NCBI RefSeq assembly: GCF_019599405.1
Contig: NZ_RKLQ01000001.1
Location: 1,550,001 to 1,614,000, forward strand
Source: Haloarcula salinisoli
GTDB taxonomy: Archaea; Halobacteriota; Halobacteria; Halobacteriales; Haloarculaceae
DNA: 64,000 nucleotides
Direction: 5' to 3'
Both the position numbers and the translations under genes were made by a program. Shown one piece after another: positions 19,144-36,173 of this stretch (position 1 is the first letter of the stretch; each line of letters starts with the position of its first letter). The notes below the pieces were generated by a model. That model did not search any database. It was not told where the DNA came from and saw only the letters and a list, made by a program, of their open reading frames with translations.

Positions 19144-20973
19144 ATGCTACTCTGTTCGGGTCAGGGTGACCAGCGCCAGCCACGGGCACAATCCGGCCCA
19201 CTCGGATTTCTGCTCGTCTTCGCGCTGGTCATCGCGGCGACGACGCTTATCGTAGCCCTCGGCGCGGGGGCCATCGGGGGGACACAGGAGACACTCGACG
19301 AGGAACGGGCCGAGAAGGCGATGACGCAATTCGACTCCCAGGCCGCGCTGGTCGCGCTCGGGAACTCTCAGGTCCAGCGGGTCGACCTCTCGTCGGGGCG
19401 AGCGAACTCCTACCAGGTCGAGGACGACGCCGGCCGGATGACGCTGTCGTACACGAACCAGACGAACGGGAACGAGACGACCATCTTCTCGAAACCGATG
19501 GGCCGAATCCGCTACCAGACCGACAACGGCGACAACATCGCCTACCAGGGCGGGGGTGTCTGGCGGTCCGACGGGAACGGCAACGCCGTCATGGTGTCAC
19601 CGCCCGAGTTCCACTACCGCGACGCCACGCTGACATTGCCGCTGGTCACGGTCGGGTCCTCCGGGACCATCGGTGACCGAGCCGTCATCTCGAACGCGAA
19701 AACGACGCGGTACTTCCCGAACGGGACCAGAAACAGCGCCTACAGGAATCCGCTGGAGAACGCCCGCGTCGAGGTCTCCGTCACGAGCGACTACTACCGC
19801 GCGTGGGGGGAGTACTTCGAGACGCGGACCGACGGCCAGGTGGAGTTCAATCACTCGGCGAACAAGGTGACCCTGGCGCTGGTGACACCGCTGGAGAACA
19901 CCAAGATCACCTCTGCGACGGCGAGCCTCTCCGCCAGCGGGACCTTCGAGATCAACGGTGCCGCCGGGAATCTCTGTGGCGCGAACGTCTACACCAATAG
20001 CTACAACTCCACCGGGACGGACAAGGGCTACTGCACCCAGGAGTCGGACGGCGACACGACCGGCGACGGGGACATCGTCTACGGGGGTGACGTGGATATC
20101 AGCGGTGGCGCCGGTGGCGGCTCCGGCGGCGACCTCCGTGGTGACGTGACCTCCGGTGGCAAAGTGTACGTCGGCAACGGCAACGGGAGCCCCGACATCG
20201 ACGGCAATATTAGCCACACTGATGGGTGCGATAAATGCGAGGAAAACGACAAGATCACGGGGGAGCTAAACCAGATCAGCGGAATCGACAAGGCGCCATC
20301 GATCAACGGCATCGTCCAGACGCAGGTCAACGAGAGCGAGAAGAGCAACGACAACGCGGGCGCACCGATTACTGACGATACGCTCAATTACACCGCCGGG
20401 AGCGTCGAACTCTCCGCGGGCAGGTACTACCTGGAGGACATCACCGTCGCGAACGAAGACACAGTGACGCTCAACACCACCGAGGGCAACATCTTCATCG
20501 GTGTCCGTGAGAACGTCGAGCTCGCCGAGAACGCCACCATCGAGGTAGTCGGCGACGGTACCGTAAGTGTCTACGTACTCGGAGACGGCGGCCACGCGAG
20601 CCAGTTATCGATGGCCGCTTACAGCGAGGTCACGAATGCAGGCGACGATGCGCCCCAGTTCCGCATGTTCGGGCAGGACGACTTCACCGCGCGTATCGGT
20701 GACGGTGGCGGCGGGACCAATGGCCTGGCGAAGTACGTCGGTGTCATCTACGCGCCCCCAGGGACCAGCGGGACCGGGACTGTTACGCTGGAGAAAGGGA
20801 CCATCTACGGGGGGGTACTCACCGGCACGACGACCATCGCCAACGGGAACGGCGGCTCCATCCACTACGACATGGCGCTGCGGACCACGCGTGTGCTGAC
20901 CCAGAGCGAATCGATCATCCGCGTGACCTACATCCACGCCTCGACGAACGAGATACAGGTCGAAGACGGGTGA
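19144..20973 (+). CDS. Second long pilin-like surface protein, paralogue of the preceding gene
   Basis: From ATG 19144 the 609-residue protein has one N-terminal helix (GPLGFLLVFALVIAATTLIV). It shares the AYQGGGVWRSDG and SPPEFHYRDATLTLP block with its neighbour and has the same C-terminal strand repeats (GNIFIGVRENV, GTVSVYVLGDG, YVGVIYAPPG). A Gly-rich insert (GGAGGGSGGDLRGD) and a CDKC pair lie mid-protein. TTATTATG at 19113-19120 is about 27 bases before the ATG, fitting a leaderless start; an in-frame start at 19093 is less likely. Many NxT/NxS sequons suggest surface glycosylation. The pair arose by duplication and then diverged. Confidence 0.78.
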   Translation: MLLCSGQGDQRQPRAQSGPLGFLLVFALVIAATTLIVALGAGAIGGTQETLDEERAEKAMTQFDSQAALVALGNSQVQRVDLSSGRANSYQVEDDAGRMTLSYTNQTNGNETTIFSKPMGRIRYQTDNGDNIAYQGGGVWRSDGNGNAVMVSPPEFHYRDATLTLPLVTVGSSGTIGDRAVISNAKTTRYFPNGTRNSAYRNPLENARVEVSVTSDYYRAWGEYFETRTDGQVEFNHSANKVTLALVTPLENTKITSATASLSASGTFEINGAAGNLCGANVYTNSYNSTGTDKGYCTQESDGDTTGDGDIVYGGDVDISGGAGGGSGGDLRGDVTSGGKVYVGNGNGSPDIDGNISHTDGCDKCEENDKITGELNQISGIDKAPSINGIVQTQVNESEKSNDNAGAPITDDTLNYTAGSVELSAGRYYLEDITVANEDTVTLNTTEGNIFIGVRENVELAENATIEVVGDGTVSVYVLGDGGHASQLSMAAYSEVTNAGDDAPQFRMFGQDDFTARIGDGGGGTNGLAKYVGVIYAPPGTSGTGTVTLEKGTIYGGVLTGTTTIANGNGGSIHYDMALRTTRVLTQSESIIRVTYIHASTNEIQVEDG

Positions 20974-21195: not shown

Positions 21196-21927
21196 TCAGG
21201 ACTCGATGTCGACCTCGATGTCGTGGTAGACCACGTACGTCTGGTCGATGTTCCCAGAGTCGGGCACGGTACACTCGACCCCGGACGCCTGACAGTCGAA
21301 GCCAACAGACTCGAAGTAATCCCGCCAGAGCCCTGGCTGGGCGGTGTTTTGCAGCTCGACGGTGACGTCCTCAGCCGTGCCGTCGTACGCTACCGACGTG
21401 TCCTCCTTCTTCGTGCGGATGAGCACCGTCGACCCGCTGTAGACCTGGCGGTCGGGCCGGTTGAGACCGACCACAGAGATGAGGACGCGGTCCTCGGTGA
21501 CGACGAACGGCGGGTCGGAGATTCGGAGCCCGCCGCCGTTGGAGGTGCGAAACACTGCCCCCGCTTCGTAGACGAGGTTTCTGCCCTCGTCACCGGTGTA
21601 GACGAGGGGGCGTATCTTCCACGACCGGTCCAGCACTGTGTCGGTCGAGTTGCGCACCGAGACGCGCATCGTGACGTTACTACCCGTTGCCAGCCTCGCC
21701 TGCCCGAGGCTGATCTCCGTGGCGCGGCTGGGCGCGTCGCGCCGGTGGACGTCGGCGACGTTGTCCGACAGCACGCTGAAGGCCTTCTGTGCGTTCGCCA
21801 TCTGCTCGTCGTTGCGCGTCTCCTGGAGCGTGCTCAGCCCGCTCACGGAGACGATACCAACGGCGGAGACGACGAGCGCGAACACCAGCACGTAGCTGAC
21901 CACCTCGCTGACAGCGCGCTCAGACAT
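21196..21927 (-). CDS. Pilin-like protein, DUF7289-like (cassette 1, gene 5)
   Basis: ATG 21927 gives MSERAVSEVVSYVLVFALVV, a charged start with Ser-Glu right before one helix, typical of haloarchaeal pilin-like N-termini. The 243-residue protein then has a YEAGAVFRTSNGGG segment and a beta-rich region, corresponding to AYESGAVFRSDGG in the paralogue at 29746-30621. The final region has a pair of Cys (FDCQASGVEC). It overlaps the previous gene by eight bases (ATGTCTGA). It is probably membrane-anchored with its bulk outside the cell. In-frame sequence upstream of 21927 belongs to the neighbouring gene. Confidence 0.78.
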   Translation of the reverse strand: MSERAVSEVVSYVLVFALVVSAVGIVSVSGLSTLQETRNDEQMANAQKAFSVLSDNVADVHRRDAPSRATEISLGQARLATGSNVTMRVSVRNSTDTVLDRSWKIRPLVYTGDEGRNLVYEAGAVFRTSNGGGLRISDPPFVVTEDRVLISVVGLNRPDRQVYSGSTVLIRTKKEDTSVAYDGTAEDVTVELQNTAQPGLWRDYFESVGFDCQASGVECTVPDSGNIDQTYVVYHDIEVDIES

Positions 21928-22366
21928 TGCGCACCTCCAGATGGTCGGCCCCTTGATCGTACCGAATCTGGATGTCACCACCCCTTGCTGAGGTCGCGCC
22001 GAGTGGGGTCTCGACTGTGAGACCGATTCGGACCGTCACGTCGGGCCGAGTTGTGTTCACCACGAGCGTCTGGTCGCTTGGCACCAGCGTGAGTTCGTAG
22101 CTCGCGCCGGTCACCCTGTTCGAGAGGGTCCGGTTCAGGGTGATTGTCGGGTCGTCCGAGTCAGCGGCCCTGACCAGCCGGTCCGAGCGTTCGACGTCAG
22201 CGGCGATTTGCTGGCCGACGACCCTGAGTTCGTCTCTGATGACCTGCTCGCGCTGGCTGTCGACGTAAGTCCCACCGGCGGTAATCAGCCCGGTGATGAG
22301 CAGCGTCGCGATAGCCAGGGCCAGCACGTAGCTCAGCGTCGTCGAGACCGCACGCACGTCAGACAT
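21920..22366 (-). CDS. Pilin-like protein, DUF7266-like (cassette 1, gene 4)
   Basis: The 148-residue product begins MSDVRAVSTTLSYVLALAIA, one helix ending near residue 32, then a coiled segment (VDSQREQVIRDELRVVGQQI) and a small beta-rich domain. The same plan (RAVS, helix, SQQERVARQQADEIGADV) is seen in the gene at 30623-31087, so the two are paralogues. The ATG at 22366 makes an eight-base ATGTCTGA overlap with the preceding gene, repeated at its own 3' end; ATG 22375 is an alternative. It is predicted to be a minor pseudopilin or assembly factor. Confidence 0.78.
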   Translation of the reverse strand: MSDVRAVSTTLSYVLALAIATLLITGLITAGGTYVDSQREQVIRDELRVVGQQIAADVERSDRLVRAADSDDPTITLNRTLSNRVTGASYELTLVPSDQTLVVNTTRPDVTVRIGLTVETPLGATSARGGDIQIRYDQGADHLEVRNV

Positions 22367-23378
22367 CTGGCTCACCCGGGGCGACCCGAACGTCTGTCTC
22401 GTAGCGCAGGTCGGTCGTGAGATACGTGTACTCGACCGTCACGTCGTAGAGGGCCGTACTCGACTTTGGACCGTCGGACGCATCCGGGAGCAACTCGAGG
22501 TCGCCCCCATCGTAGACGACCAGCGAGAACGTCCCCGTTATCCCGTCGGCTTTGTCGAAGGAGATGTCGTAGCTGTCGTCCGTGCCGGGGGTCACCCCAG
22601 TCCCGGCACCGAAGTGGAAGTTCTCGCCAGACGGTGCGGTCCGGAGTGCGTCACACTCCTCGCCGTCGATAGTCCCACCAGTCACGTCGATTGTAATGCC
22701 CGTTCCCGGACTGTCTCTGGTGACCTCGCAGTCTTCGACGACAGTGGTCCCGCTGTCGTTTTTGAGCGTCCGGACGTGGACGGTGTCGCCGCCTGCGTCC
22801 CAGATGCGGGCGCGCCAACTGTTCTCGTCCCCGCTAGCGGCGCTGTCTTGGACCCGTATCTCGAACGGGTCGCTGGCGTCCGCAGTGATGGTGGACGCTT
22901 CGATGACGAACGCTCGCGTCCCGTTGGCGTCGTCGACCCGAGAGACGTTCCCGACCAGCTGGTAGCGTTCGTCGCCCGCCGCGTTCGTGAAACTCGAGTC
23001 GTTCGCCCGGTAGATGCGTGCGCCCTCTTTTTGCGACCCCGACTGATATGCGACGTTGACGACCCGTCCCGAGCGCGCAGACTGTCGCCCGGTCTGCTGA
23101 GAGAGTTGCCTGACACTGGCCTCCACCGCGCCGGTGAGGTCGGATTGGGAGCTGTTATTGTTTCGGTTTGCCGCTTCGATGCCCTCACCGACGTTTTCAG
23201 TTACGTCTGCCCGCATCGAGAGCGCGCCCTCACTGCCCGCTGTCTCGCCCCGGGTCGCCAGATTCTCGGTGAAGATGGCCGAATTGACGATGAGCGCCAT
23301 CGCCACGAAGATGACCGCCAGCGCGAACGCGGCGATGAGGAGTATCTGCCCGCGGTCGTCCCGGCTCAGATTCGCCAT
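22359..23378 (-). CDS. Pilin-like protein, DUF7261-like (cassette 1, gene 3)
   Basis: The 339-residue protein starts MANLSRDDRGQILLIAAFAL: a DRGQ motif followed by one long helix, resembling TadE/TadG-type or PilX-type minor pilins. The body is rich in Asn, Ser, Asp and Gly with sequons, and holds a Cys pair (EDCEVT and EECDAL) that could form a disulfide outside the cell. The paralogue at 31084-32004 begins RSRGQMILIMSVLFA and has similar Cys spacing. It overlaps gene 2 by 13 bases and gene 4 by eight. Confidence 0.78.
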   Translation of the reverse strand: MANLSRDDRGQILLIAAFALAVIFVAMALIVNSAIFTENLATRGETAGSEGALSMRADVTENVGEGIEAANRNNNSSQSDLTGAVEASVRQLSQQTGRQSARSGRVVNVAYQSGSQKEGARIYRANDSSFTNAAGDERYQLVGNVSRVDDANGTRAFVIEASTITADASDPFEIRVQDSAASGDENSWRARIWDAGGDTVHVRTLKNDSGTTVVEDCEVTRDSPGTGITIDVTGGTIDGEECDALRTAPSGENFHFGAGTGVTPGTDDSYDISFDKADGITGTFSLVVYDGGDLELLPDASDGPKSSTALYDVTVEYTYLTTDLRYETDVRVAPGEPDV

Positions 23379-23950
23379 GCAACCACCTCCACGCGCACTG
23401 TGTTGTAGAGGTTGTCCCCGGTGTCGGGCATCGGGTAGGTCATGTTCTCCGTGTTGAGCCGGGTCGAACTCGGGGTGCCGTCTGCATTGTACAGCGGGTC
23501 ATCGTCCCACAGCGTCACGGTGTGTGTCGCCGTGACGGCGTTGTCCGTCGGAACACCGCTGTAGACGTACTGACGAGTGATGGGCCTGCCGTCGGCGTTC
23601 TGGAACCGGAAGTAGACGTTGTACGCGATACCGTTGCCGTTGAACGCCCGCTCCAGCATCGCCCCGAACCGGTTGTCGGGCGGACCACTCGTGTAGAACC
23701 GCTGGACGCCCGCGTTGTGGTAGCGCGACGAGCTATTGTTCCAGTAGAGGACTGCCGGTTTCAGTGCCCCCACCTCTGCCGCCGAAGCGAGAACCCCCTG
23801 GCCCGTTTCCCCCTGCTGATTCTCGATATGCTGGCTGGACGTACTCGCCGACAGCGGCGTCACGGCCGTCATCTGTAACGCGAAGATGAGACTCGACAAC
23901 ATGAGCAGTCCAGCGACCGTCGCCTCCAGTGTGTGTGCTTGCCCTCGCAT
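23366..23950 (-). CDS. Pilin-like protein, DUF7288-like (cassette 1, gene 2)
   Basis: The 194-residue product starts MRGQAHTLEATVAGLLMLSS, with a Glu five residues into a helix after RGQ, the closest of the set to a classical type IV prepilin (basic residue and Gly, then E at about +5). The paralogue at 31998-32603 begins TRGQAFTLEGVIGAIIVLSS, and both end in an NTVRVEVVAW or NAVRVKIIAW motif. Both also share a TVTLWDDDP / QVTLYNSDP segment. One base separates it from gene 1. Confidence 0.8.
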   Translation of the reverse strand: MRGQAHTLEATVAGLLMLSSLIFALQMTAVTPLSASTSSQHIENQQGETGQGVLASAAEVGALKPAVLYWNNSSSRYHNAGVQRFYTSGPPDNRFGAMLERAFNGNGIAYNVYFRFQNADGRPITRQYVYSGVPTDNAVTATHTVTLWDDDPLYNADGTPSSTRLNTENMTYPMPDTGDNLYNTVRVEVVAWRI

Positions 23951-23951
23951 C

Positions 23952-24569
23952 TTACCACATCTCCACGAACAGCGTCACGTCCTCGCCGTCGATTGTGACC
24001 ACCCGGACCGACGTGACCGACGGTTGTGACGTCGGAACTGGGTTACCCCGTTCCAGGACCGTATCGCACGACCCATCCGACGACTCGACGAGTCCAGTAT
24101 CGGGCTCGGTACTGTCCCAGCAGAGTGCTTCCTGGCCGTCCCCACCAGCCGTGAGATTCCCGCGGAGACTCACGTTGACCTGCTGGTACCCACTACTCAG
24201 ACCGAGCTGTGTTCTGAGTGACCCACTGGAGAACCGGCAGTCCGACGGGCTGGATCCATTGAAGAACGCCTCGGTGCAGTAACTGTCCAGCACGTACGGC
24301 TCTCCCGGCTCCGCCAGGGCACCCTTCGACAGCTGGTCAGCGACACGATTCGACGTGACTGTCTCGTCCTGTGCGCTCGCAGTGAAGGGCGCGAGGATAC
24401 CGGGGATAAACAGGAAAATGAACAGCAACACGGCTAGAAAGACGCTCACGCCGATTGCGAAATCGAGTGTGGTCTGTCCACGGTCGCTGGTCCGTCGGGA
24501 AGACCGACGGTCCTGTGGCTCGTCACCACACTGCGTACCCGTCTTTGTTGACCCGTTAGTACCCAACAA
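23952..24569 (-). CDS. Pilin-like protein, DUF7287-like (cassette 1, gene 1)
   Basis: The protein has a long polar N-terminus, then DRGQTTLDFAIGVSVFLAVL, a helix starting with a D at the Glu-equivalent position, then a globular part with four Cys. The start is uncertain: the first usable codon after an in-frame TAA at 24573-24575 is TTG 24569, and no ATG lies before the helix. A CTTTTTTTAAG tract (minus strand, about 24572-24582) looks like the operon's TATA element. The paralogue at 32603-33160 carries SRGQTPVDYLIGISLVLV. This is the first gene of a five-gene operon. Confidence 0.72.
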   Translation of the reverse strand: MLGTNGSTKTGTQCGDEPQDRRSSRRTSDRGQTTLDFAIGVSVFLAVLLFIFLFIPGILAPFTASAQDETVTSNRVADQLSKGALAEPGEPYVLDSYCTEAFFNGSSPSDCRFSSGSLRTQLGLSSGYQQVNVSLRGNLTAGGDGQEALCWDSTEPDTGLVESSDGSCDTVLERGNPVPTSQPSVTSVRVVTIDGEDVTLFVEMW

Positions 24570-24869
24570 CGCTTAAAAAAAGGACTGTCGTGTAGGTTAT
24601 TATCTGTTGTGGCCGACGCAGTGGCTGTCCCCGGCGTGAACCGCCACCCATCTTGGCGAGCGTTGGGCCTGACGCTATCGTCGCCCAGTCAAAATAGCGC
24701 CACAATCCGTCGGTACGCCACTACCGACAGCACAGTCTCTCACTGTGTTGTCTTCGTGGCTACCGGTCGATGGTAACCCACGAGATATAGCCCGGTTTTA
24801 CTTCCAGAGGACATATCGGAGACGTATCACGGAGGTTACGGAAGCAAAGTTACAGTTGCTGAGTGCTCC
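24570..24869. other. Intergenic between the adhesin gene and cassette 1
   Basis: The right-hand gene is transcribed away from and the left-hand gene... both run on the minus strand, so this 300-base gap lies upstream of cassette 1 and downstream of the large adhesin gene. Apart from the T-rich promoter element next to 24569, I see no coding frame, clear terminator hairpin or repeat. Confidence 0.45.
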
Positions 24870-27800
24870 TCAGGCCAGATCGAAGATATTGACACTGGTG
24901 TCGATCGGATTCGTGGTGGGATCGAGCTGTGGCTGCCAGATGTCGACGCTCCTGGTCTCGGAGTCGTCACGAGTGCTCACCTCGATCTCGTCGACCGTGG
25001 GATTGTTCGCCGGGTCCCACGTGAGCGAGAACTCTTTGCTATCGCCCGGCCCAAGTGTGATATCCTCGAGTGCCAGTATCTGGTCCGACCCGGACGGCAT
25101 GAGCGACACGAACTGGGTGTCCTCGACCGGGCCCCGATTGGTGATGTTCACCTGGACCGTCAACGGGCGTCCAGCGGCAACTCTATCACCCTGCCCGGTC
25201 GGGAACTCGATCGGCTCGACCTGGAAGTCGGGACCCTCGCTCTTGTTGACCGTGATATTGAACGAGCTCGCGTCGGCCACCGTCCGTAGCGTGATGTTTC
25301 TGTCGTCCGAGTCGGCGTCGCCGTAGGTCGTCTCCCAACGCAGGGTTATGTCTTCGCTCTGCTGCTCCCCGAGGTAGAGGTGGGTATAGTTGAGGATGGT
25401 TCCGTTCTCGTCTTGCAGGAACACGGTCTGGTTCGCCCCGATGCCGTCGTTCGTTATCGTCGCGGTGAACTCCACGTCGTCGAGTTCATCGACTTTCTTC
25501 GGGGCGGCTGAAGCGTCCTCTATCAGGAACTCCGAATCTTCGAGTTTCCGGACATCCAGCGGATCGGTCTTACCGAAGTCCTCTGTACTCACCGTGATTT
25601 CCGACTCGGTGAGATTGCTCGTGTTATCGCCCGGTCGGGTCTGCCAGTCCAGCTCGACGGTCGCATTTTCGTTGCCATCGAGGGCGAGTTCCGTGCTGTC
25701 TACGGGATTGCCCTCCGGGTCACGCAGGACGATGCGCTGTGTTTCGTCGATGTCCTGGGTGTTGTCGATCGTTGCGTTGACAGTGACCGAGTCGCCCTCG
25801 GTGACGTTGTCGGGCGCCTCTACCGATTCGACGATGAACCCACCCTCGGACTGCCAGGCGAAGATCGGGAAGCCCTCGTTGGTAATATTGCCTGTCTTCG
25901 GGTCGATGTCGTAGACCGGTTCCCAGATGTCCCAGTCGAGATTTGCCATCGTTCCCTCGGCGTCCTCTTTCGTGACGCCCGGATACTGGTCGTACCACGA
26001 TTCGGGCTTGTCGTCCGGGAGCACCTGTGGCCCGGTCATTTCGTCGGCGTCGAGGTCGATGCTGTTGTCGTTCACGTTGTCACCGCCGTCGCCGACCGTC
26101 GGGCCGTCGGAGTAGACACTATTGTAGATAGTGTCTTCGGTGCCACTCGTCTCCCCGATTCGGCCGGCGATGCCGCCGACCTGCAAGGGGACGGTGAACT
26201 GCTCCCGCCCAATATCGTCGTCGTCAAAGAGCGCTCCTATGTCACCCTCCAGCGAGAGGTCCCCGTCGGCCCAGTACATCTGGCTGAGGTCACTGGGGTT
26301 GTTCGATGTCCACCCGGCGATACCTCCGACAGAGGACGGGCCGCTGACGTTCGCTCTCGAATAGCCGACCGAGAACTCCGTGTCATAGCCCATGCCGCCC
26401 AGGATACCACCGATACCGAGGTTCGGGCTCCCCTCACTGTCCTGCCATGGGTGCTTATCGCTGTGGTCGCCGACGACAATCGGTTCGTTGCCGGTAACCG
26501 TCGCCGTCGAGACGAGCTGGTTCGTCAGGTCGGCGTCGTGGCCGTGTCCAACGATCCCGCCCACTTGCTGGTACTTCGATTCGACGTGGCCGCTGACCGA
26601 AATGTTCCTGAACGTCCCACCGCCCCCACCGGCAACCCCGCCGACGACGGTCATTCCACGGACGTCAACATCGACGAGTTCGACGCTCTCGACAGTCGAA
26701 CCCTCTCCGAGGTCGTCCGGGCCGGAGAACTTATCCGTAATCGCGAAGAGTCCGACGAACGCGGTGTTGTATCGGTCGATGGTCAGCCCCTCTATCTTGT
26801 AGCCCTGACCGTCGAAGGTCCCGCCGAAGGCATTGCCTCCAGCGCTACCGGCGCCCTCCTCGCCAATCGGGTCGAAGCCATCGCCCCCATTCCAGTGTTC
26901 CGTGCCGTAGGCGTCGATGTCGTTTTCCAGACGGTAATTCTTGTCGAGACCCTCCTGCTCGATACACTGGAGCTGGTCGACCGTCTCGATGAGGAGGTAA
27001 CCGTCACTGTCCGTGTCGTAATCGACGTCGCTACAGTCCGGCCCGTCACGGACGACGACGATTCGCTCGGTCGCCTCGTCGTCCCTCGTCGAGACGGCGA
27101 GTTCGCCCGTCAGCGACCCGTTCCGGACAGTTACGTCGAAGGTCACGTCCTCGCTCTCATTGCCGGCAATCGTCGCAGCGGTAACACTACTGTTCTCGAT
27201 ATCCAGGGCTGAATCCGCCGCTGGTTCGAGGTCGGCGGTCGGGGTTCCTGCGACGTCACCGGTGTTGTTGATCGTCGCAGTCACACTGACCTCCTTGTCG
27301 AGGTCGCCCTCGTCGATATCGTCCGGGGCATCGATATCGGTGACCTCGAATTTCGCCTGGGTGTCGAAGGGCGTGGTGTCACTGTCGTCTGGGCTCCGGA
27401 CTCGTACCTTGTTGTCGCCACGCTCAAGCTCGACCGGGCTGTCCCAGACCATCGTCACAGTAGTATCATTACCCTCGCCGACGAACACCTCTCTCGCATC
27501 GACGATCAGGCCGTCGGTCGTCTCCGTGTCCGCAACCAACAGGATTTGCTGTTTCCCGCCACCGTCACCACTGTTGGTCACGTCGACCGTCACGTTGAAC
27601 GGTTTGCCCTCGCCAGCGGCGTCGTCGGTCCCGGTGATGTCGACCTGGAACTCCGGTGTGCCCTCTGCTTTTATCCTGTGGGTGTCGTTGGCGTCGAGGG
27701 CCTGCACTTCGAGTTCCTCGTCGAAGTCGGAGACTGGCGCGATCCAGGATAGTGTCACGTCTGTCACGTTATCTGAACCCGGCCCGGCGGCGTCGAGTCG

Positions 27801-29624
27801 GTCGATTTCCACCACGTTGACCGGTACCCCGTCCCCATTGAGGAGCGAGACTTTGGTATCTAGTACCGGAGCGTTCCCGTTGTTGCTGATTGTCGCGTTC
27901 ACCTGGGCCTCGGTCCCGGGCGCCACCTCGTCAGGCGTCTCAGTTTCGTTGATATCGACGCTCAGATCGGTGTTACGGGCCTCTATCGAGAGGTTTGCCT
28001 CGTCGATGTCCTGGTTACCGACCCGTGCATAGAGCTTCGTTTCGTTCTCAGAGGCTGCGGTCCAGTTCATTGTCACCGAGACGGTCTCGCCCGTGTCGAT
28101 GTCGCCATTGCTGATCGACTCGTTGGTCCTGAAATCGGCGACCCGCACGTTTCCGTCATCGTCCTCGACGAACAGCCCGACAGCGTGACCCCTCGTCGAT
28201 TCGACCGCTCCGACGTTCTCGACCTCGACCTCGACGGTCTGGCGCTCCCCGACGACGGATTCGTAGTCGTCCTGCGTGAGGTTGATATCGAGGTCCGTCG
28301 GCATGTACCTCTCTGAGTTTTCGAGATTCGAGGCACACGTCTCGAGCTGTTCGAATACGCCGTCGACCTGTGAGCCGATGCGGTCGTCGGTGTATGCGAC
28401 CACACAAATGCGAGTGTCTGCGTACGAACTGTTGAACGTGTACTCCTCGCTATCACTCCCGGACTTCTTGTAGGACTCTATCTGTGGTGGGTCCTCGGAG
28501 TCGTCCCAGCGCGGGGCTGCCCTCGAGCTGGGACCGCCCTCGATGGAGTTAGATATCTCCGTGACGTTTTTCCACTCGCCGTTTCCGCTTGGCGGAGTAA
28601 GGTCGTTGTTGTTCTGGGTGTGGATGACCCACTCTTCCCTGGACTCGTCGTAGAAGGCCAGTTGCTGTCCCTGATTCGCGTTCACATCCTGTCCGGAGAT
28701 ATTGAACGAGTTCTCACCGGTCCGTTCGATGGAAGAGTTTGCGCGTGGGTCGAAGCCTCTGGGAGCCTCACTCGCTGGGCCCACGTAGACGATCGGGTCC
28801 GGATAGGTCAGGAAGTCGGTCGTCCCCGTATCCTCGAAGGTCAACGTGACCTCGGTATCGTCAGCATCCATATCAGCAGGTTTCGGACTGACGGTCACGT
28901 CGGACAGCTCTTCCTCGGCGTAGGTTGCCCAGCCGAGGGCGTACTTGCTCTCGATGGTGACGGTGATGTCGACCGGAACGGTATACTCCGTGTTTTTGAT
29001 ATTCCAGGCGGGTGAGAGTTCGTTTCGAATCTCTTCCGACCGTTGTGTCGAATCTGCGACGTTTCGTCGGGCGACGAGTTCGTTACCCTCGTTGATACCC
29101 CTATTGCCTTTGAGAGTGGCGAACTGGAACGTGAGGAACTCTCCAGCCCTAGAAAGCGGTGGATTCGACCGAACGACCGCGTACGATGGCGAGGGGTACT
29201 CCCAGAAACCCCCACCCTGATAGACGAGTTTCTCGCCGTCGCTACTCTTGTACACCACCGCACCCAAATCTTGTTCGTAGCGGGTGACGTTCTTCTCGGT
29301 CAGATTCCTATACTCGTCGACCGTTTCGACTGTTATCTCGACAGACCCCTCCGATTCGTTGAAAGAGAGGTCAGAACCCGACCCCTCCGGGAAGCGCAAA
29401 GTCGTTTCGGACGACACCTCCGAGTTGTAGAGCCCGGAGAGACGGTCGTCCATCTCGTGGAAGGAGTCCCTCGTCAGGCTGTCTTGAGATTCGTCACTGA
29501 TCGCCTGCAGGGCAGCACCCGCCAGTGCTACCGTCAAGACGGCACCGATAATAGTAATCGAGACCATGAGCACAGTCCCGACCAGCTCGGACTGTGCGCG
29601 ATCTCTATCTTCCCAGAGCCCCAT
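24870..29624 (-). CDS. Giant adhesin-like protein: pilin-type N-terminus, seven CARDB-like repeats, GLUG-like beta-helix
   Basis: From ATG 29624 (MGLWEDRDRAQSELVGTVLM) the 1584-residue protein has one N-terminal helix of pilin type, then a DUF7289-like region with AYQGGG-type YQGGGFWEYPSPS. CARDB-like Ig domains start near residues 441, 548, 658 and 760. A central region (about 863-1175) carries GLUG-like motifs (GTFDGQGYKIEGLTI, VGGVAGGGG, VGGIVGHG). Three further CARDB-like domains start near 1265, 1365 and 1466. CARDB and GLUG modules occur in cell-surface adhesins. It is very acidic with many sequons. It sits between two pilin-like cassettes on the same strand. Start 29654 is rejected because it would precede the charged pilin-like start. 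Confidence 0.82.
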   Translation of the reverse strand: MGLWEDRDRAQSELVGTVLMVSITIIGAVLTVALAGAALQAISDESQDSLTRDSFHEMDDRLSGLYNSEVSSETTLRFPEGSGSDLSFNESEGSVEITVETVDEYRNLTEKNVTRYEQDLGAVVYKSSDGEKLVYQGGGFWEYPSPSYAVVRSNPPLSRAGEFLTFQFATLKGNRGINEGNELVARRNVADSTQRSEEIRNELSPAWNIKNTEYTVPVDITVTIESKYALGWATYAEEELSDVTVSPKPADMDADDTEVTLTFEDTGTTDFLTYPDPIVYVGPASEAPRGFDPRANSSIERTGENSFNISGQDVNANQGQQLAFYDESREEWVIHTQNNNDLTPPSGNGEWKNVTEISNSIEGGPSSRAAPRWDDSEDPPQIESYKKSGSDSEEYTFNSSYADTRICVVAYTDDRIGSQVDGVFEQLETCASNLENSERYMPTDLDINLTQDDYESVVGERQTVEVEVENVGAVESTRGHAVGLFVEDDDGNVRVADFRTNESISNGDIDTGETVSVTMNWTAASENETKLYARVGNQDIDEANLSIEARNTDLSVDINETETPDEVAPGTEAQVNATISNNGNAPVLDTKVSLLNGDGVPVNVVEIDRLDAAGPGSDNVTDVTLSWIAPVSDFDEELEVQALDANDTHRIKAEGTPEFQVDITGTDDAAGEGKPFNVTVDVTNSGDGGGKQQILLVADTETTDGLIVDAREVFVGEGNDTTVTMVWDSPVELERGDNKVRVRSPDDSDTTPFDTQAKFEVTDIDAPDDIDEGDLDKEVSVTATINNTGDVAGTPTADLEPAADSALDIENSSVTAATIAGNESEDVTFDVTVRNGSLTGELAVSTRDDEATERIVVVRDGPDCSDVDYDTDSDGYLLIETVDQLQCIEQEGLDKNYRLENDIDAYGTEHWNGGDGFDPIGEEGAGSAGGNAFGGTFDGQGYKIEGLTIDRYNTAFVGLFAITDKFSGPDDLGEGSTVESVELVDVDVRGMTVVGGVAGGGGGTFRNISVSGHVESKYQQVGGIVGHGHDADLTNQLVSTATVTGNEPIVVGDHSDKHPWQDSEGSPNLGIGGILGGMGYDTEFSVGYSRANVSGPSSVGGIAGWTSNNPSDLSQMYWADGDLSLEGDIGALFDDDDIGREQFTVPLQVGGIAGRIGETSGTEDTIYNSVYSDGPTVGDGGDNVNDNSIDLDADEMTGPQVLPDDKPESWYDQYPGVTKEDAEGTMANLDWDIWEPVYDIDPKTGNITNEGFPIFAWQSEGGFIVESVEAPDNVTEGDSVTVNATIDNTQDIDETQRIVLRDPEGNPVDSTELALDGNENATVELDWQTRPGDNTSNLTESEITVSTEDFGKTDPLDVRKLEDSEFLIEDASAAPKKVDELDDVEFTATITNDGIGANQTVFLQDENGTILNYTHLYLGEQQSEDITLRWETTYGDADSDDRNITLRTVADASSFNITVNKSEGPDFQVEPIEFPTGQGDRVAAGRPLTVQVNITNRGPVEDTQFVSLMPSGSDQILALEDITLGPGDSKEFSLTWDPANNPTVDEIEVSTRDDSETRSVDIWQPQLDPTTNPIDTSVNIFDLA

Positions 29625-29745
29625 GATTAGGGTTAATAAAACACCGAAGCACATAATTATTACGGGTCGTTTTACATAATATAGAGCGCAGTCGAATACG
29701 GGACCGTATGGTCTCTGTGGCGGCTATCTACCACCATGTCTCACC

Positions 29746-30621
29746 TCAGGAGAGGTCGATGACGACGTGTCTTATGAGGAGCGACTCGTCGGCCTCCGCT
29801 TCGTATCTGTACGTACCGTTTTGCTCCCAGCCCGCCCGGTCCAGCGAGCGGGCCCACTGGTCTGGGTAGGCGGTCGCCGAAACATCGACCTGTACCGTGG
29901 CGCTGTCGCTCCCATCGAGGGAACCGTACCACTGTTGCTGTGCAGTGACGTTGGATTCGGCTACGATTCGGACTGTCTGGCCGGCATCTCTCGCGGGAGC
30001 GTCCTGTGGGACGTCGCCACGTGGATCTATCCCGTCTCCCTGTCTGGAACTACTACCACTGATGTCGATGGTGCCGCTTCGCTCACGGAGTGAGACGATA
30101 GTCACAATTACCGTCCCGTTGTTGGCGTACCATCGCGGTTCTCTCCGGAAGGTTCCGCCGTCGGACCGAAAGACAGCACCACTCTCGTACGCGAGCGTGA
30201 CGTCCCGGTTCCCTCGCGAGACCCTGTGTTGCAGTGAGTTGATCTGGTAGGTGTCGTTGATACTGTCGGTGTCGACTCCCGTCCCTGTTACGTTCACCTG
30301 CAGTGAAGACTCCGTGACCCCGATATTCCCGCCGTTGAGCGCGAACTCCAGTTGGGTTATCGGAGCACCCTCCTGCAGTTCACTGAGGTCCGCAGCCGCC
30401 ACCTCCATCGCCCGTTCGGAGGACTGGACCTGTTCGTAGTCGCGCAAATCGGTCAACTGGTCCAGCCCTGCTGTCGCGACCAGTGACCCCGACGCGATGA
30501 CCACGGCAAAGATGAGCACGAACGCGAGCACGTCCGAGATACCGCGATCGTGCAATGGCAGACGTTTCAGGCCCCGAGACGCCCCGCACACGGTCGATTG
30601 ATTACTGCGGTCACGTTTCAT
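29746..30621 (-). CDS. Pilin-like protein, DUF7289-like (cassette 2, gene 5)
   Basis: ATG 30621 follows the previous stop by one base and has a G-rich ribosome-binding stretch upstream. The 291-residue protein has a basic N-terminus, one helix (GISDVLAFVLIFAVVIASGS), then an AYESGAVFRSDGG segment and a beta-rich domain. It matches the protein at 21196-21927 in layout and in that segment. It is likely anchored with its bulk outside. The first residues are longer and more basic than in the paralogue. Confidence 0.78.
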   Translation of the reverse strand: MKRDRSNQSTVCGASRGLKRLPLHDRGISDVLAFVLIFAVVIASGSLVATAGLDQLTDLRDYEQVQSSERAMEVAAADLSELQEGAPITQLEFALNGGNIGVTESSLQVNVTGTGVDTDSINDTYQINSLQHRVSRGNRDVTLAYESGAVFRSDGGTFRREPRWYANNGTVIVTIVSLRERSGTIDISGSSSRQGDGIDPRGDVPQDAPARDAGQTVRIVAESNVTAQQQWYGSLDGSDSATVQVDVSATAYPDQWARSLDRAGWEQNGTYRYEAEADESLLIRHVVIDLS

Positions 30622-30622
30622 A

Positions 30623-31087
30623 TCAGCATCCCCCAAATTTGATCGTCCCGTTCTGGCACTTGCTCATTTCCGGACTCGTACCCCTGGCGCTCGATTCCGC
30701 GACGCTGATACTCTTGGGCACTGGGTATATCGCGTCCCCGGTCAGCGCCTGTGATTTTATCCGGAGCGTCCAGGAGAACGCGTCGAACCTGCCGGCCCGC
30801 TGCTGGAAGGAGATCGTGTAGGTACTGCCGACGAGTCTCGATGGGTACTCGAGCTGAACTGTCGTCTCGCTGCTGGCAGTGGATTCGTGGATACGGTCGA
30901 GTCTGTCAGCCTGTGAGAGGACGTCCGCCCCGATTTCGTCGGCCTGTTGTCTCGCCACGCGCTCCTGCTGGCTTTCCAGCAAGCCTCCGGCACCGATTAT
31001 CAATCCCGTCGTCAGAAGCGTCGTGATTCCGATCGCTATCGTGTAATTGAGCGTTATCGAGACGGCTCGGGAATCACTCCGGATCAT
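30623..31087 (-). CDS. Pilin-like protein, DUF7266-like (cassette 2, gene 4)
   Basis: The 154-residue protein begins MIRSDSRAVSITLNYTIAIG: RAVS, then one helix, then a coiled SQQERVARQQADEIGADV stretch and a small beta domain, paralogous to 21920-22366. Its C-terminus carries two Cys (KCQNGTIKFGGC), absent in the paralogue, so a disulfide or processing step is possible. Its ATG overlaps the preceding stop by ATGA. Confidence 0.78.
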   Translation of the reverse strand: MIRSDSRAVSITLNYTIAIGITTLLTTGLIIGAGGLLESQQERVARQQADEIGADVLSQADRLDRIHESTASSETTVQLEYPSRLVGSTYTISFQQRAGRFDAFSWTLRIKSQALTGDAIYPVPKSISVAESSARGTSPEMSKCQNGTIKFGGC

Positions 31088-32004
31088 GGGCTGGACTCCC
31101 CGTACAGGCGGAAGGTCGATCTGTGTGTGATGGATGGGTCGGTGTACTGCACGCGAAATGCCGGGTTGACGACAACGCCGTCGTACTGTTGTTGCCAGTC
31201 GAACGTATTCCCTTCTATATCAGTATCGATGGCCTCTACGCCCGAAATAGTGTACGTACCCTCGGCCTGGGAGCCGTTCTCGAACGTGAGGTTGAAAGTG
31301 TCCGGAACCCCGAGATCGAACTCGCCACAGATATCGGTGGCGTTCGACACCGTCCCGACGCCGCCAGTCGCATCGACTCGAATCGGGTACGCCAGGTCAC
31401 AGTCCACGCCGGCGCCTTCGACACCGTCGTCGTCGAAGGTCAGTTTACCCCCACCACCCTCTACAACGACTTCGAACGGGGGGTCGGAGGCGTCTGGTCC
31501 ATCGGTCACGTACATACTGAGTCGTGGGAGTCCATCGGCGGACTCGAGTACTGTCCAGTTCTGCTCACTCGGACTGTACCCCCTGTGCGTGAAATTCTGT
31601 GTACTGTTGTTCTGTCTGACCAGCATCCCCTCCTGGCTTCGACCCTCGACGTAGCTTACGCTGACAGCCGCCCCCGATTCGGAGGCAGACAGCGCGGCGT
31701 TGAGCTCACTGGTGTTGTTGACAACGTCGCCAAACGGGTCGTCGGGACCGCCGCTCTCCGCTGCGTAGGGCAACGCTTCGCCGGTCCGGTTCATCGACGT
31801 GTGGACCTGGAACAGTCGTTCCATATCGTCGGCGGCCTGCCCCTCGACACGCTCGATGTCACCGAGATTCGACGCCTGTCTCTCGGTGTTTACGTTCGCC
31901 GGGGCGTGCAGTGTGTTCAGCAGGACGACTGTCGTCAACACGGTGACCGCAAAGAGCACCGACATTATGAGGATCATCTGCCCCCGAGAACGTGTCGTCA
32001 CCAT
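31084..32004 (-). CDS. Pilin-like protein, DUF7261-like (cassette 2, gene 3)
   Basis: The 306-residue protein starts MVTTRSRGQMILIMSVLFAV, the RGQ-then-helix layout of TadE/PilX-like minor pilins. The extracellular part is rich in Asn, Gly and Ser with several NxT sequons, and has a Cys pair (VDCDLAY and DICGEF). It corresponds in order, size and Cys arrangement to 22359-23378. Overlaps are seven bases with gene 2 and four with gene 4. Confidence 0.78.
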   Translation of the reverse strand: MVTTRSRGQMILIMSVLFAVTVLTTVVLLNTLHAPANVNTERQASNLGDIERVEGQAADDMERLFQVHTSMNRTGEALPYAAESGGPDDPFGDVVNNTSELNAALSASESGAAVSVSYVEGRSQEGMLVRQNNSTQNFTHRGYSPSEQNWTVLESADGLPRLSMYVTDGPDASDPPFEVVVEGGGGKLTFDDDGVEGAGVDCDLAYPIRVDATGGVGTVSNATDICGEFDLGVPDTFNLTFENGSQAEGTYTISGVEAIDTDIEGNTFDWQQQYDGVVVNPAFRVQYTDPSITHRSTFRLYGESSP

Positions 32005-32603
32005 GCGATTATCTTGACCCTCACTGCGTTGTAGACGTTGCTTACACCGTCGAAATCGGGATGACGGTCGATGTAGAACTGGTCATCTTCGGCGAGCGTC
32101 TGTCTGTCGGGGCCCCCAACGCATCTGTCACCACTCGTCCGACGGACCGGGTCGCTATTGTAGAGGGTGACCTGGCGGGACGCCGAGACGGCCCCACTTG
32201 GCGGACTGATCTCACCGGCGGGGTAGAGCCGGTTACGCACCAGGCTGTCGCCGTCCCGGTACTCGGCGAGGACGACGAACTCGTTGTTCTGTGCGAGCGT
32301 CTGATTCAACAGCACGCCAAACCCTGTGAGTGGATCGTTCGGGTTGGCGAGGCCGGGATCCGGCTCACCGGTCGGCGTCGCACAAGTAACAGTCGTCCGG
32401 AGTGCGTCACGGTCTGCGGCGGTCGCCAGAAGGTCCGAGACCTCTGTTTCGAGTCGGTCGGCCTGGGCGTCGTCGCCCCCCGTGGCGAGCGGTGCGATGT
32501 CGACGGCTTGCAGCGCCAGCACCACGGACGACAGAACGATTATTGCCCCGATGACCCCTTCGAGCGTGAACGCCTGGCCGCGCGTCTGACCGTCCCCAGT
32601 CAT
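31998..32603 (-). CDS. Pilin-like protein, DUF7288-like (cassette 2, gene 2)
   Basis: ATG 32603 forms a TGATG overlap with the preceding stop. The 201-residue protein begins MTGDGQTRGQAFTLEGVIGA, with Glu after RGQ as in classical prepilins, and ends in YNAVRVKIIAW, matching the end of its paralogue 23366-23950. Two Cys in the body (VTCATP and DRCVGG) may pair. It is predicted to be processed by a PibD-type prepilin peptidase, which is not encoded in this window. Confidence 0.8.
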   Translation of the reverse strand: MTGDGQTRGQAFTLEGVIGAIIVLSSVVLALQAVDIAPLATGGDDAQADRLETEVSDLLATAADRDALRTTVTCATPTGEPDPGLANPNDPLTGFGVLLNQTLAQNNEFVVLAEYRDGDSLVRNRLYPAGEISPPSGAVSASRQVTLYNSDPVRRTSGDRCVGGPDRQTLAEDDQFYIDRHPDFDGVSNVYNAVRVKIIAW

Positions 32604-33160
32604 CAGCTCCACACCCTCACGATGATTCGGCAGCCCACCGCGCAGGCTGGCTCGCGTGTCGCGACCGTCCGGACACTCGTCGCCGTCCCGCCGGTCCCGG
32701 CGAAAGTATCCCCACCAGTAGTGACCTGCACACCCGAGCCAGTCTGTACGGTTACGTTGACCCGTTCACCGTCCGGTATCCCGGCGTTAGCTCTGAGCGT
32801 CCCGAAATCGTTTTGCAGTGACGCCTCCAGTTTAGTGCGATCGAGGATCCGTTCCTCGCCAGCGTAGGTGTGATTCGTGACGATGTTTTCTGCCAGCCGA
32901 TCGGCCATCGACTGTTCGTCCGGACTTACCGCCGGCTCGAACGGGTCGAAGACCGCTGGAACGAGGGCGAACGTCCCCAAAATTGTAACGAGCACGAGGC
33001 TGATTCCGATCAGATAATCGACCGGCGTCTGTCCCCGCGAACTGCCGGTCTCGCTCCGGTTGCGTCTGTCCCTTCCAGACCGGGACGGTAATCGACCGCT
33101 CACCCAGGATCGGGCCGCAACACAGAGTTTGCCTCCGTTCGATGGTAAATTATCTATCAT
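32603..33160 (-). CDS. Pilin-like protein, DUF7287-like (cassette 2, gene 1)
   Basis: The 185-residue protein has a basic polar leader of about 42 residues, then SRGQTPVDYLIGISLVLV and a small domain ending with a Cys pair (EPACAVGC). It is paralogous to 23952-24569 in order and in the RGQTxxD helix start. ATG 33160 comes two bases after the stop of a small hypothetical gene, which suggests coupled translation. Confidence 0.78.
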   Translation of the reverse strand: MIDNLPSNGGKLCVAARSWVSGRLPSRSGRDRRNRSETGSSRGQTPVDYLIGISLVLVTILGTFALVPAVFDPFEPAVSPDEQSMADRLAENIVTNHTYAGEERILDRTKLEASLQNDFGTLRANAGIPDGERVNVTVQTGSGVQVTTGGDTFAGTGGTATSVRTVATREPACAVGCRIIVRVWS

Positions 33161-33162
33161 AT

Positions 33163-33498
33163 TCAGTATCGCTGGAAACCGAGGATAAGCCGTCTCGAGG
33201 AGCCAACCCGCGAGCGAATTTCCGAACCCAGATGCTGATATCGCGTTCTCGCCGTAGCGGGTGCTGGCTGGATATCGACGGAGAAGCGGTGGCTCTCGTC
33301 GCTGGAAACTGCTATCGACCGGCCGGACGAATCGTCGCTCTCGCCACCGTCTACAGTGATTCTGTCCCGCTGGACGGGAGTCTTCAAATGGCCCCCTTTT
33401 GCCACCCCAGTATCTCGGAAGATGCCAGAACTGCCACCGGTGGCATTGATCAAACCCACACCGGTGTACCCAGCAATCCCAGCTCTGCTGTTCGACAT
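33163..33498 (-). CDS. Small hypothetical protein at the head of cassette 2
   Basis: ATG 33498 opens a 111-residue frame whose stop lies two bases before the next gene. A TATA-like element (33522-33529) is centred about 27 bases upstream, and AGGTG lies six bases before the ATG. The start MSNSRAGIAGYTGVGLI looks faintly like a pilin leader but no helix follows; the rest is polar and basic with Ser/Arg runs. It may be a real leader gene, a decayed pilin-like gene, or an untranslated leader of the operon. Cassette 1 has no equivalent. Confidence 0.45.
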   Translation of the reverse strand: MSNSRAGIAGYTGVGLINATGGSSGIFRDTGVAKGGHLKTPVQRDRITVDGGESDDSSGRSIAVSSDESHRFSVDIQPAPATARTRYQHLGSEIRSRVGSSRRLILGFQRY

Positions 33499-33521
33499 AG
33501 TTTTCACCTATTTTCTATGGG

Positions 33522-33529
33522 ATATAAAT
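33522..33529 (-). promoter_or_regulatory. TATA-like promoter of cassette 2
   Basis: The minus strand reads ATTTATAT here, centred 27 bases before the ATG at 33498, the usual spacing for leaderless haloarchaeal transcripts. It is the only strong AT-rich core element upstream of the cassette. Confidence 0.55.
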
Positions 33530-33728
33530 CTTTGGTAGAAAATATTACAATACGGAGAGTGGCTGATTCTACTTGCAGGGCGGTGGTGAACGGATAAACG
33601 CATGCTGCTTGCACCACTCTATTCCTGATGTCGTGAACGGAGCAAATCCGGTCAAGTGGATACGGACTCACCATCCATACCTGGGAAAGTTTGGGTCGCC
33701 GTCCCGCGGTCACCGAAGCTTCGATGGG

Positions 33729-33765: not shown

Positions 33766-33837
33766 GGGCTCGTAGATCAGGGGTAGATCACTCCCTTGGC
33801 ATGGGAGAGGCCCCGGGTTCAAATCCCGGCGAGTCCA
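33766..33837 (+). tRNA. tRNA-Ala (anticodon GGC)
   Basis: The 72-base sequence folds as a cloverleaf. The acceptor stem is GGGCTCG/CGAGTCC with one G-U pair, and the D arm has GATC repeats. The anticodon stem is CTCCC (33791-33795) with GGGAG, loop TTGGCAT, anticodon GGC at 33798-33800. The T arm has loop TTCAAAT with CCGGG/CCCGG pairing, and the discriminator is A at 33837. CCA is not encoded. It reads GCC/GCU codons. Confidence 0.96.
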
Positions 33838-34112: not shown

Positions 34113-36173
34113 TCACCCGACAGCCATCCAGACGACCAGCGCAATCGTCGAGAGGATGACGGCGAATTTCACGCCCGCCAGCAGCTTCACTTCGCGGATA
34201 TAGCCGGCGATGAACGACGACAGCAGCGCCTGTAGCGTGACCGCGTGGAAGAACAGCATCGACAGCGCGTTGGTGTCGATGGCCCCGCCGAACTGGCCAC
34301 CGCCAGCGCCCGACCCTCCGGCACCGCTGGCCTGCTGGGTCAGCCCAGACATCACGTCGAGGAACTGCGTCTTCAGCAGTGCCATGACTCCGAGCAAGGT
34401 GAGGTAGGTCATGATGATGATGACCGTCTGCATCCGGGTTCGGGACTTGCGCGAGCGGTCGATGTCGTCCTGGTTTTCGGCGGCCTGGGCCGCCGTCGAG
34501 AGCACGTCCTGAATCTGACTGGAGGCCTCCTGGGCCTCCGCGATGAGCTTGACCGTTCGGGCCATCCGCGGGACGTGGTACTTGTTGTTGAACTCCCGCA
34601 GGGCGTCTTTGAGGCTGGTCCCGTAGTTCACCTTCGCGTGCATCGTCTCGAACTCGTCGGAGAGCTTGCCCGCAGAGGTCTCGGAGACGACCTTGATAGA
34701 TTCGAGTAGGGTCATCCCGGTGTCGTTCGCGGAGGCGAGCTTCCGGAGGTTCTCCGAGAGGTTCCCGATGATGGCCTTCCGCGAGCGCTGGTTCCACTCG
34801 TAGAATACCGCGAGCGGGATGAAGTTGATGTACATCGGGACGTAGACCCAGAAGAACGTGCCGCTGACGGGGTTGGCTTCCATCCCGCTGATACTGAGCG
34901 GCGCTTCGCCAGCGACGATGCTCACGACCAGTGCCAGCACCGAGAGCGGAATCGTCAGTCCCAGCACCAGCATCGGGTGGTCGCGGAAGAACAGGTGGGG
35001 CTTCTTGAGTATCTGGACGAGTTCGTAGGTCCCCTCCCGGCCCTTGATGCGGTCGAAGACGCTGTAGGTCCCGGTGTAGGACTCGATGAGGCCGAGGTTG
35101 AACACCGCGATACCCTCGTCGACGACGACGTCTTCCTCGTCGGAGTTGGGTCGGAGGTAGCCGTCGCCGATGGCGTCCTGGGTCACCGTCGAGACCAGGA
35201 CGAGGAAGGCGATGCCCGTCAGCGGGATGAGTCCGTAGACGGTGCCGTAGATGAGCATCTGCTGGGCGTTACCCATCATCGTCATGATGACGAGGATGAT
35301 GATGAGCAAGAGCGGGAACAGCGAGAGGGTCATGTACATCTCGCCGAACAGCTCCAGGGTCTCCAGCATCTTCTCCTGTTCCTGCTTGGTCGTCCGCATG
35401 TGCTTTTCCTTCTGGTCTTCCAGGAAGGAGGTCATGTCCCCACCGGAGTTGATGATAGAGAGCATATCGGTGAGGAACTGCGACAGCTCGCCAGAGGGGG
35501 TCTGGATAGCCTGGTTGCGCACCGCAGTCCGGTAGTCGGTATCGAAATACTCAGTCTCCAGCACGATGGATTTGAACTCCTGGGCGACCTCACCGTAGGT
35601 GTCTTCGGCTTCGCCCATCGCCTCGAGGATTTCGAGCTGGTTCAGCCCACCGACGGAGAGGGCGTACATGAACGAGATAGCGTCCGAAAGGAGGATGTTG
35701 ATTTCGCGTTCACGCGCACTGGCACGGAAGTAGGGTATCGAGACGAGCGAGCCAAAGCCCACGCCGAAGCCGATGGCTCCGAAGACCACACCGGTCACGA
35801 GGATAATGAAGGGGAGTTTCAGCGTGTCGATAATCGTCAGCAGCGTCTCGTTCTGTATCGTGATACCGATGAACGTCGGCGCGCCGCTGCCCGCGAAAAA
35901 GAGGCTCACCGCGATAAAGCCAAGCAGGCTCCCGACGAGCCAGAGCGCGACCCCGGCGATGATACCGACCGCGAGGGCTCGGGCGAGGAACATCTCGACG
36001 TTGTCGGCCATCCGGGCCTGGGCGAGTTTGTCCTCGACGCTATTGACGAACTCCCCTTCCTCGTCGAACAGCCGCTGGTAGGCCGGGTAGAAGGCATCGC
36101 CCAGGGCGCCACCGCTTGCGAGCTCCTTCTGGCGCTTCGTGTTCTGTCGCTTGCTCTGCGTGTCCAGACTCAT
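34113..36173 (-). CDS. Type II/IV secretion platform protein (TadC/FlaJ/PilC-like, two T2SSF domains)
   Basis: The 686-residue protein has eight or more membrane helices and two cytoplasmic regions of the T2SSF type (about 130-320 and 470-620), each followed by a helix pair (LFPLLLIIILVIMT and MQTVIIIMTYLTLLGV). Archaeal FlaJ/PilC proteins have the same double arrangement and anchor the assembly ATPase. It overlaps the ATPase gene by ATGA. With the pilin-like cassettes upstream it is the obvious inner-membrane core of their assembly machine. I leave the symbol open because several paralogues exist per haloarchaeal genome. Confidence 0.9.
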   Translation of the reverse strand: MSLDTQSKRQNTKRQKELASGGALGDAFYPAYQRLFDEEGEFVNSVEDKLAQARMADNVEMFLARALAVGIIAGVALWLVGSLLGFIAVSLFFAGSGAPTFIGITIQNETLLTIIDTLKLPFIILVTGVVFGAIGFGVGFGSLVSIPYFRASAREREINILLSDAISFMYALSVGGLNQLEILEAMGEAEDTYGEVAQEFKSIVLETEYFDTDYRTAVRNQAIQTPSGELSQFLTDMLSIINSGGDMTSFLEDQKEKHMRTTKQEQEKMLETLELFGEMYMTLSLFPLLLIIILVIMTMMGNAQQMLIYGTVYGLIPLTGIAFLVLVSTVTQDAIGDGYLRPNSDEEDVVVDEGIAVFNLGLIESYTGTYSVFDRIKGREGTYELVQILKKPHLFFRDHPMLVLGLTIPLSVLALVVSIVAGEAPLSISGMEANPVSGTFFWVYVPMYINFIPLAVFYEWNQRSRKAIIGNLSENLRKLASANDTGMTLLESIKVVSETSAGKLSDEFETMHAKVNYGTSLKDALREFNNKYHVPRMARTVKLIAEAQEASSQIQDVLSTAAQAAENQDDIDRSRKSRTRMQTVIIIMTYLTLLGVMALLKTQFLDVMSGLTQQASGAGGSGAGGGQFGGAIDTNALSMLFFHAVTLQALLSSFIAGYIREVKLLAGVKFAVILSTIALVVWMAVG

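Follow-up and report, generated by a model that had tools for sequence, protein, structure and literature searches.

Gene Organization at the Locus

A 64,000-nucleotide stretch of the Haloarcula salinisoli genome (contig NZ_RKLQ01000001.1, positions 1,550,001 to 1,614,000; hereafter the window) was analyzed. It contains two sets of five small pilin-like genes (sets A and B), genes for long pilins with a DUF7289 head, and the genes of a PilB-PilC assembly motor. Set A spans 24569 to 21196, and set B spans 33160 to 29746. Both lie on the minus strand in the same Pfam order, DUF7287-DUF7288-DUF7261-DUF7266-DUF7289, and their genes overlap or abut. The small genes were labeled a, b, c, d, and e, and the long DUF7289-headed pilin was labeled E. 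Gene starts are those of the longest open reading frame (ORF) and are often too long. The features of the locus, with family E-values in brackets, were as follows:

32603..33160, minus strand: set B gene 1, DUF7287 pilin-like (1.8e-28)
31998..32612, minus strand: set B gene 2, DUF7288 pilin-like (1.5e-38)
31084..32004, minus strand: set B gene 3, DUF7261-like pilin (9.9e-5, under the curated cut-off; assigned by position and N-terminus)
30623..31087, minus strand: set B gene 4, DUF7266 pilin-like (2.3e-17)
29746..30636, minus strand: set B gene 5, short DUF7289 pilin (3.8e-31), short-head clade
24870..29654, minus strand: set B gene 6, giant modular pilin, the "adhesin" (DUF7289 9.4e-16, CARDB 2.6e-21), long-head clade
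23952..24569, minus strand: set A gene 1, DUF7287 pilin-like (1.3e-43)
23366..23950, minus strand: set A gene 2, DUF7288 pilin-like (7.2e-65), modeled
22359..23378, minus strand: set A gene 3, DUF7261 pilin-like (8.8e-11)
21920..22375, minus strand: set A gene 4, DUF7266 pilin-like (6.5e-24)
21196..21981, minus strand: set A gene 5, short DUF7289 pilin (6.5e-62), start likely inside the ORF
19093..20973, plus strand: set A gene 6, first copy, DUF7289 head and DUF7305 (1.1e-26 and 3.2e-44)
17313..19034, plus strand: set A gene 6, second copy, DUF7289 head and DUF7305 (6.4e-26 and 3.4e-31), modeled
36170..38704, minus strand: PilB-type assembly ATPase, 844 residues (T2SSE 2e-31), N-terminal extension kept across the family
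34113..36173, minus strand: PilC/TadC-type membrane platform, 686 residues (T2SSF 7.8e-27)
33766..33837, plus strand: tRNA-Ala (GGC), found with ARAGORN, left neighbor of the 9.1-kb insert and syntenic in related loci
24618..33719, no strand: 9.1-kb segment with the whole set-B module (abcde and the giant), absent from Haloarcula rara

All ten small genes scored above the curated Pfam cut-offs except the set-B DUF7261 gene (23.0 bits, cut-off 27). The N-terminal motifs RGQTxxD, RGQxxTLE, RGQ, RAVS, and R[AG][VI]S were found in both sets. A class III signal peptide followed by a hydrophobic N-terminal helix was found in 72–74 of 74 members of each small family and in 77 of 78 long pilins; the background of this simple N-terminus test in unselected ORFs was 25%. 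The original prediction, made from the letters of the window, had described two five-gene cassettes with common order, strand, overlap style, and motifs, and an assembly ATPase with its platform beside them. All of these are present.

Conservation of a Six-Gene Unit

Family hidden Markov models for the locus scans were built from the window's own proteins and iterated, and the family was sampled with one genome per species. DUF7288 was found in 51 of 57 sampled family genomes and in 82 of 120 genomes sampled over the phylum, with weak matches in many distant ones. Haloferax volcanii has one or more DUF7288 genes. In the 57 family genomes, 74 of the 76 DUF7288 genes examined lay in a complete abcde run on one strand; the fixed five-gene order is therefore far beyond chance. 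Around these runs, PilB-PilC was usually upstream, and a long DUF7289 protein was encoded within about 6 kb. The set order next to PilB-PilC was repeated in named genomes of Haloarcula, Halosimplex, Halapricum, Natronomonas, Halobellus, and others. Other families of the phylum have the unit in the order a b c d e E, in some cases as two consecutive copies (loci L127–L132). The five-gene order thus occurs in other archaea and clearly accompanies a secretion ATPase, two points on which the original prediction depended.

The DUF7289 heads fell into two groups. A tree of 198 heads split the short heads (gene e) from the long, passenger-bearing heads with 97% support in the Shimodaira–Hasegawa-like approximate likelihood ratio test (SH-aLRT). 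Both clades include sequences from beyond the family. The subunits e and E are therefore both ancient, rather than E being an ad hoc fusion of e.

In trees of concatenated small pilins, set A belonged to clade I (49 sets) and set B to clade II (25 sets). The distances among genes a–d and among the neighboring E heads were correlated (r = 0.871), and none of 2000 permutations gave so high a value. Swapping partners within genomes, which keeps species relatedness, gave a null mean of 0.363 and a maximum of 0.778; again none of 2000 swaps reached 0.871. The passengers were also matched to the sets. All 11 CARDB giants in unambiguous pairs accompanied clade-II sets, and all 22 DUF7305 passengers accompanied clade-I sets; a remaining, unclassified passenger group occurred in both clades. 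The real unit is six genes, namely five small pilins and one long DUF7289-headed pilin.

This changes the place of the long proteins at the locus. According to the original prediction, the two sets bracket an adhesin, with two long pilin-like genes on one side. The giant gene does lie between the sets, but it is the sixth member of set B; likewise, the two long genes at 17313–19034 and 19093–20973 are present and are the sixth members of set A. A stand-alone adhesin was ruled out for the giant, because its N-terminus is a pilin head of the long-head clade. Counted from its first ATG, the giant has 1594 residues and consists of the DUF7289 head, CARDB repeats, and a middle region (residues 870–1300; window 25755–27047, minus strand) with no Pfam match and no PDB sequence match. 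The middle region is glycine-rich and repeat-like, with short matches in three congeners. No DUF2341 or PilY domain was found in the giant by the Pfam scan. A first search had suggested congeners without any giant; this was dropped because several of these congeners proved, on inspection of the loci, to carry CARDB giants from a different subclade.

Variant loci were also observed. In Halobellus, Halogeometricum, and Halopenitus (L169, L171, L180, L187, L189, L196, and L197), a DUF7289 pilin of ~500 residues is on the operon strand and one of ~260 residues is opposite, the reverse of Haloarcula. In Natrinema, Natrialba, Halobiforma, and Natribaculum (L208, L210, L212, L215, L217, L218, and L221–L226), the set adjoins a PilB of about 1090–1420 residues, and no long DUF7289 pilin was seen within the flank examined. 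In loci L130 and L131 (genome G173) and L133 (genome G065), the doubled modules are accompanied by a third a-b-c-d-e run, which is shorter and divergent and has no long pilin of its own.

Two Set Types and One Motor

PilB of the matching type has one orthologue in most family genomes. Among the 29 family genomes with at least two sets, 26 carry a single PilB of this type, which makes two sets per motor the usual arrangement. Sets A and B probably share one PilB-PilC motor, in line with the shared machine of the original prediction. The whole genome encodes 8 T2SSE-family proteins, and another motor could therefore serve one of the sets. In the window PilB, the ATPase domain occupies residues 425–645 of 844. 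One locus elsewhere (L100, G047:C7) has a complete set without adjoining PilB-PilC; no PilB of this type was found in that genome, and its sister G035 has one.

Origin of Set B

Haloarcula rara was the closest named relative found. The window is collinear with its sequence NZ_CP119785.1 (L147; the same as G189 and L237) only at 13954–24617 and 33720–43151. The 9.1-kb segment between these blocks is the lowest-GC (guanine plus cytosine) 9.1-kb stretch of the window (0.597 vs. 0.642). No integrase or transposase was found among the ORFs read in the segment, and no direct or inverted repeats of at least 11 bases were found between the two insert junctions. In many genera, the tRNA-Ala gene marks the neighborhood of set-A-type modules. 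Elsewhere in the genus (L227–L229 and L231), PilB-PilC is followed by the type-II set, a convergent CARDB giant, tRNA-Ala, and the type-I set. In three genus members including Haloarcula rara, the type-II set is missing from the PilC side of tRNA-Ala. In the window, the type-II set lies across tRNA-Ala from the usual genus site, and the giant has the same direction as the set.

When the genus' own sets were included in the tree, set B grouped with sets of other genera (support 100/98), and the type-II sets of the genus formed their own clade (100/100). Forcing set B into that clade was rejected, with a log-likelihood difference of 152 and a p-value of 4e-99 in the approximately unbiased (AU) test. 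Because set B is absent from Haloarcula rara and branches outside the type-II sets of its genus, the results suggested that module B was probably gained whole by horizontal transfer beside tRNA-Ala. In the most likely history, an old type-II module was lost and a divergent one was gained, a direction of gain that we infer.

The original prediction had taken sets A and B for duplicated minor-pilin sets. They are adjacent blocks with the same order, strand, and motifs, as a tandem duplication in the window lineage would produce. However, they belong to two deep, ancient clades, each shared with other genera; Haloarcula rara has only set A, and set B goes with foreign sets. Barring a strong long-branch artifact, the trees rejected a recent tandem duplication, and the chance that the two sets arose in this way is close to nil. 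Module B could also be ancestral and lost in Haloarcula rara and other congeners, its position in the tree being due to fast evolution. Set B (win_B) does sit on a long branch (1.14), and two-module loci are the usual layout in the genus. The congeners, however, have their type-II module between PilC and the tRNA, and its giant is convergent; module B occupies the opposite side of the tRNA, and its giant runs the same way as the set. Together with the AU test and the supported grouping with other genera, this makes an ancestral module B very improbable.

Two minor points concern the region beside the tRNA. A conserved 126-bp stretch upstream of the sets was considered as a regulatory element; it proved to be the tRNA-Ala gene with its promoter side. 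The ~550 bp separating the tRNA and set B (window 33163–33700) contain a 114-residue open frame without family match, and a TATA-like TTTATATCCC lies near 33520.

Structure Models of the Pilins

The three-dimensional model of the set A DUF7288 protein (predicted local distance difference test score, pLDDT, 90) combines a beta sheet with a long, broken N-terminal helix in a pilin-like plan. The model of a long pilin E of set A (573 residues, pLDDT 86) had a sole PDB match at E ≤ 0.001 in Foldseek, which was ComZ of Thermus thermophilus (E 1.2e-4, probability 0.97). The matches after ComZ were ice-binding-protein solenoids. In ComZ, an ice-binding-protein-like solenoid interrupts the pilin fold ahead of its last strand, and a tip position has been proposed (PMC6561018). 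The solenoid matches agree with this architecture and would fit a tip position of the long pilins. Of 64 non-CARDB long pilins, 54 have a short, conserved strand-like motif after the passenger, as do 19 of 20 from outside the family; this would fit a passenger inserted into a pilin fold. Profile searches of PDB sequences gave no relative, and no sequence relation to ComZ appeared up to E 0.1.

Proposed Function and Alternatives

The locus is best read as one PilB-PilC motor with two six-gene type IV pilus-tip modules, a reading that we hold to be probable, though well short of certain. The five small pilins of each module would form a priming or tip complex. The long DUF7289-headed pilin would cap this complex and display its large passenger domain; this would be a ComZ-like solenoid (DUF7305) for module A and a CARDB-repeat giant for module B. 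In each module, long and small pilins are matched. Both modules would probably be assembled on the same motor, so that one cell could make two kinds of tip, possibly with different binding or adhesion. Module B would have been gained as a unit beside tRNA-Ala after the loss of the older type-II module.

Several observations weigh against this proposal. The DUF7288 model had no PDB structure match at E ≤ 0.001, so homology to GspI/J/K or PilV/W/X was unsupported, and it showed no fold likeness to GspH/I/J/K-type minor pseudopilins. The global TM-scores of the ComZ match were low (0.19/0.21), which makes the match a good lead and not proof; the model was built from 30 sequences. The C-terminus of the giant is without a TYLH-type last strand. 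In congeners, a long pilin is missing next to several clade-II sets, and 3 of the 29 multi-set genomes carry two PilB genes of this type. The set tree and the DUF7289-head tree carry SH-aLRT support only, and the branch of set B is long, as given above.

The small pilins could instead be shaft subunits of a heteropolymeric pilus, with the long pilins scattered as decorations and no dedicated tip complex. This is the main competing explanation and seems appreciably less probable than the tip modules. In Makarova et al. 2016 (PMC4858521), the extra pilins of PilB4-type systems were proposed to be all structural components of the filament, and no canonical Pilin_N major pilin was found above the cut-off in the window. 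On the other hand, the rest of the genome has 13 Pilin_N genes. The five distinct families, each in single copy and in a constant order, look together with one long pilin like an ordered complex, and a subunit of 1594 residues would be hard to pack in a shaft, an argument made for ComZ (PMC6561018). A type II-like pseudopilus system that exports or anchors the giant, and is not a surface pilus, is unlikely. Its machine would be made of the T2SSE/T2SSF families, as is found here, and type II secretion typically uses sets of several pseudopilins. However, to our knowledge haloarchaea lack the outer membrane and the secretin that a piston would serve. The supposed cargo has a pilin head and a class III N-terminus, which makes it a pilin and not a passenger of the piston. 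In addition, Haloferax PilB-PilC paralogues are needed for adhesion (PMC6491452).

Comparison with Known Systems

The tip-module proposal resembles known systems in part. The ComZ locus also encodes four small pilins (PilA1-4) beside one large pilin (PMC6561018). It differs in belonging to a bacterial competence pilus, for which DNA binding was shown (PMC6561018). In the haloarchaeal modules, the passenger varies (DUF7305, other, or CARDB), and there are two ancient module types. The modular (bimodular) tip pilins such as PilB of Streptococcus sanguinis (PMC8179133) are single bacterial proteins, in contrast to a conserved six-pilin module with a matched passenger, in a protein of up to 2267 residues. 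PilY1-type tip adhesins and the DUF2341 tip proteins of archaeal clade-1 pili are likewise large proteins with a proposed tip location; the giant differs from them in having its own pilin head.

Among the closest archaeal counterparts is the PilB4-type clade-2 locus of Haloferax volcanii, described in Makarova et al. 2016 (PMC4858521) within a predicted system class that includes linked pilins and a duplication-prone minor pilin. It also has a PilB with an extra N-terminal region, PilC/TadC, and its own linked pilins. The PilB4-type ATPase has halobacteria-specific extra N- and C-terminal domains. One of the linked pilins is arCOG02911, a duplication-prone minor pilin of variable length, which is probably DUF7289. 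In its main text, that paper does not settle what the extra pilins do, and it has no six-gene unit, two DUF7289 subunits, passenger matching, CARDB giants, or module exchange.

The literature search found no paper naming these six DUF families and no account of the six-gene unit, its two types, the partner matching, the CARDB giants, or the module gain. More tentatively, and with the odds somewhat against it, haloarchaea and their relatives may exchange whole six-pilin "tip cartridges" that fit one resident motor, each with a matched ComZ-like or CARDB tip protein. A cell would then change or double the binding of its pili by gaining a cartridge, with the motor untouched. If the tip-module reading is right, six uncharacterized archaeal protein families would receive a concrete shared role, and it would explain how archaeal pili could switch target without switching motor. 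It would also suggest that the tip-pilin design of bacterial ComZ exists in archaea. Which pilins form the archaeal pilus tip, and whether one motor builds two tips, would become testable.

Other Pilus Genes of the Genome

No prepilin peptidase is encoded within the window, as the original prediction had noted, and processing would rely on another locus; a Peptidase_A24 (prepilin peptidase) gene is present at C2:113810-114205. To the same prediction the locus had looked like a complete system, which does not hold, since all detected Pilin_N genes and the prepilin peptidase are encoded outside the window. A cluster of 6 Pilin_N (PilA-type) genes within ~4 kb (C1:769639-773727) holds candidate major pilins acting in trans. 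The genome also has a second, different type IV pilus locus at C1:180000-199900 (L011). Around 184577-190300, it contains a shorter DUF7261-/DUF7266-/DUF7289-like run with another PilC and PilB. The last gene of this run, which is DUF7289-like, encodes 497 residues, and a long branch leads to its DUF7289 head.

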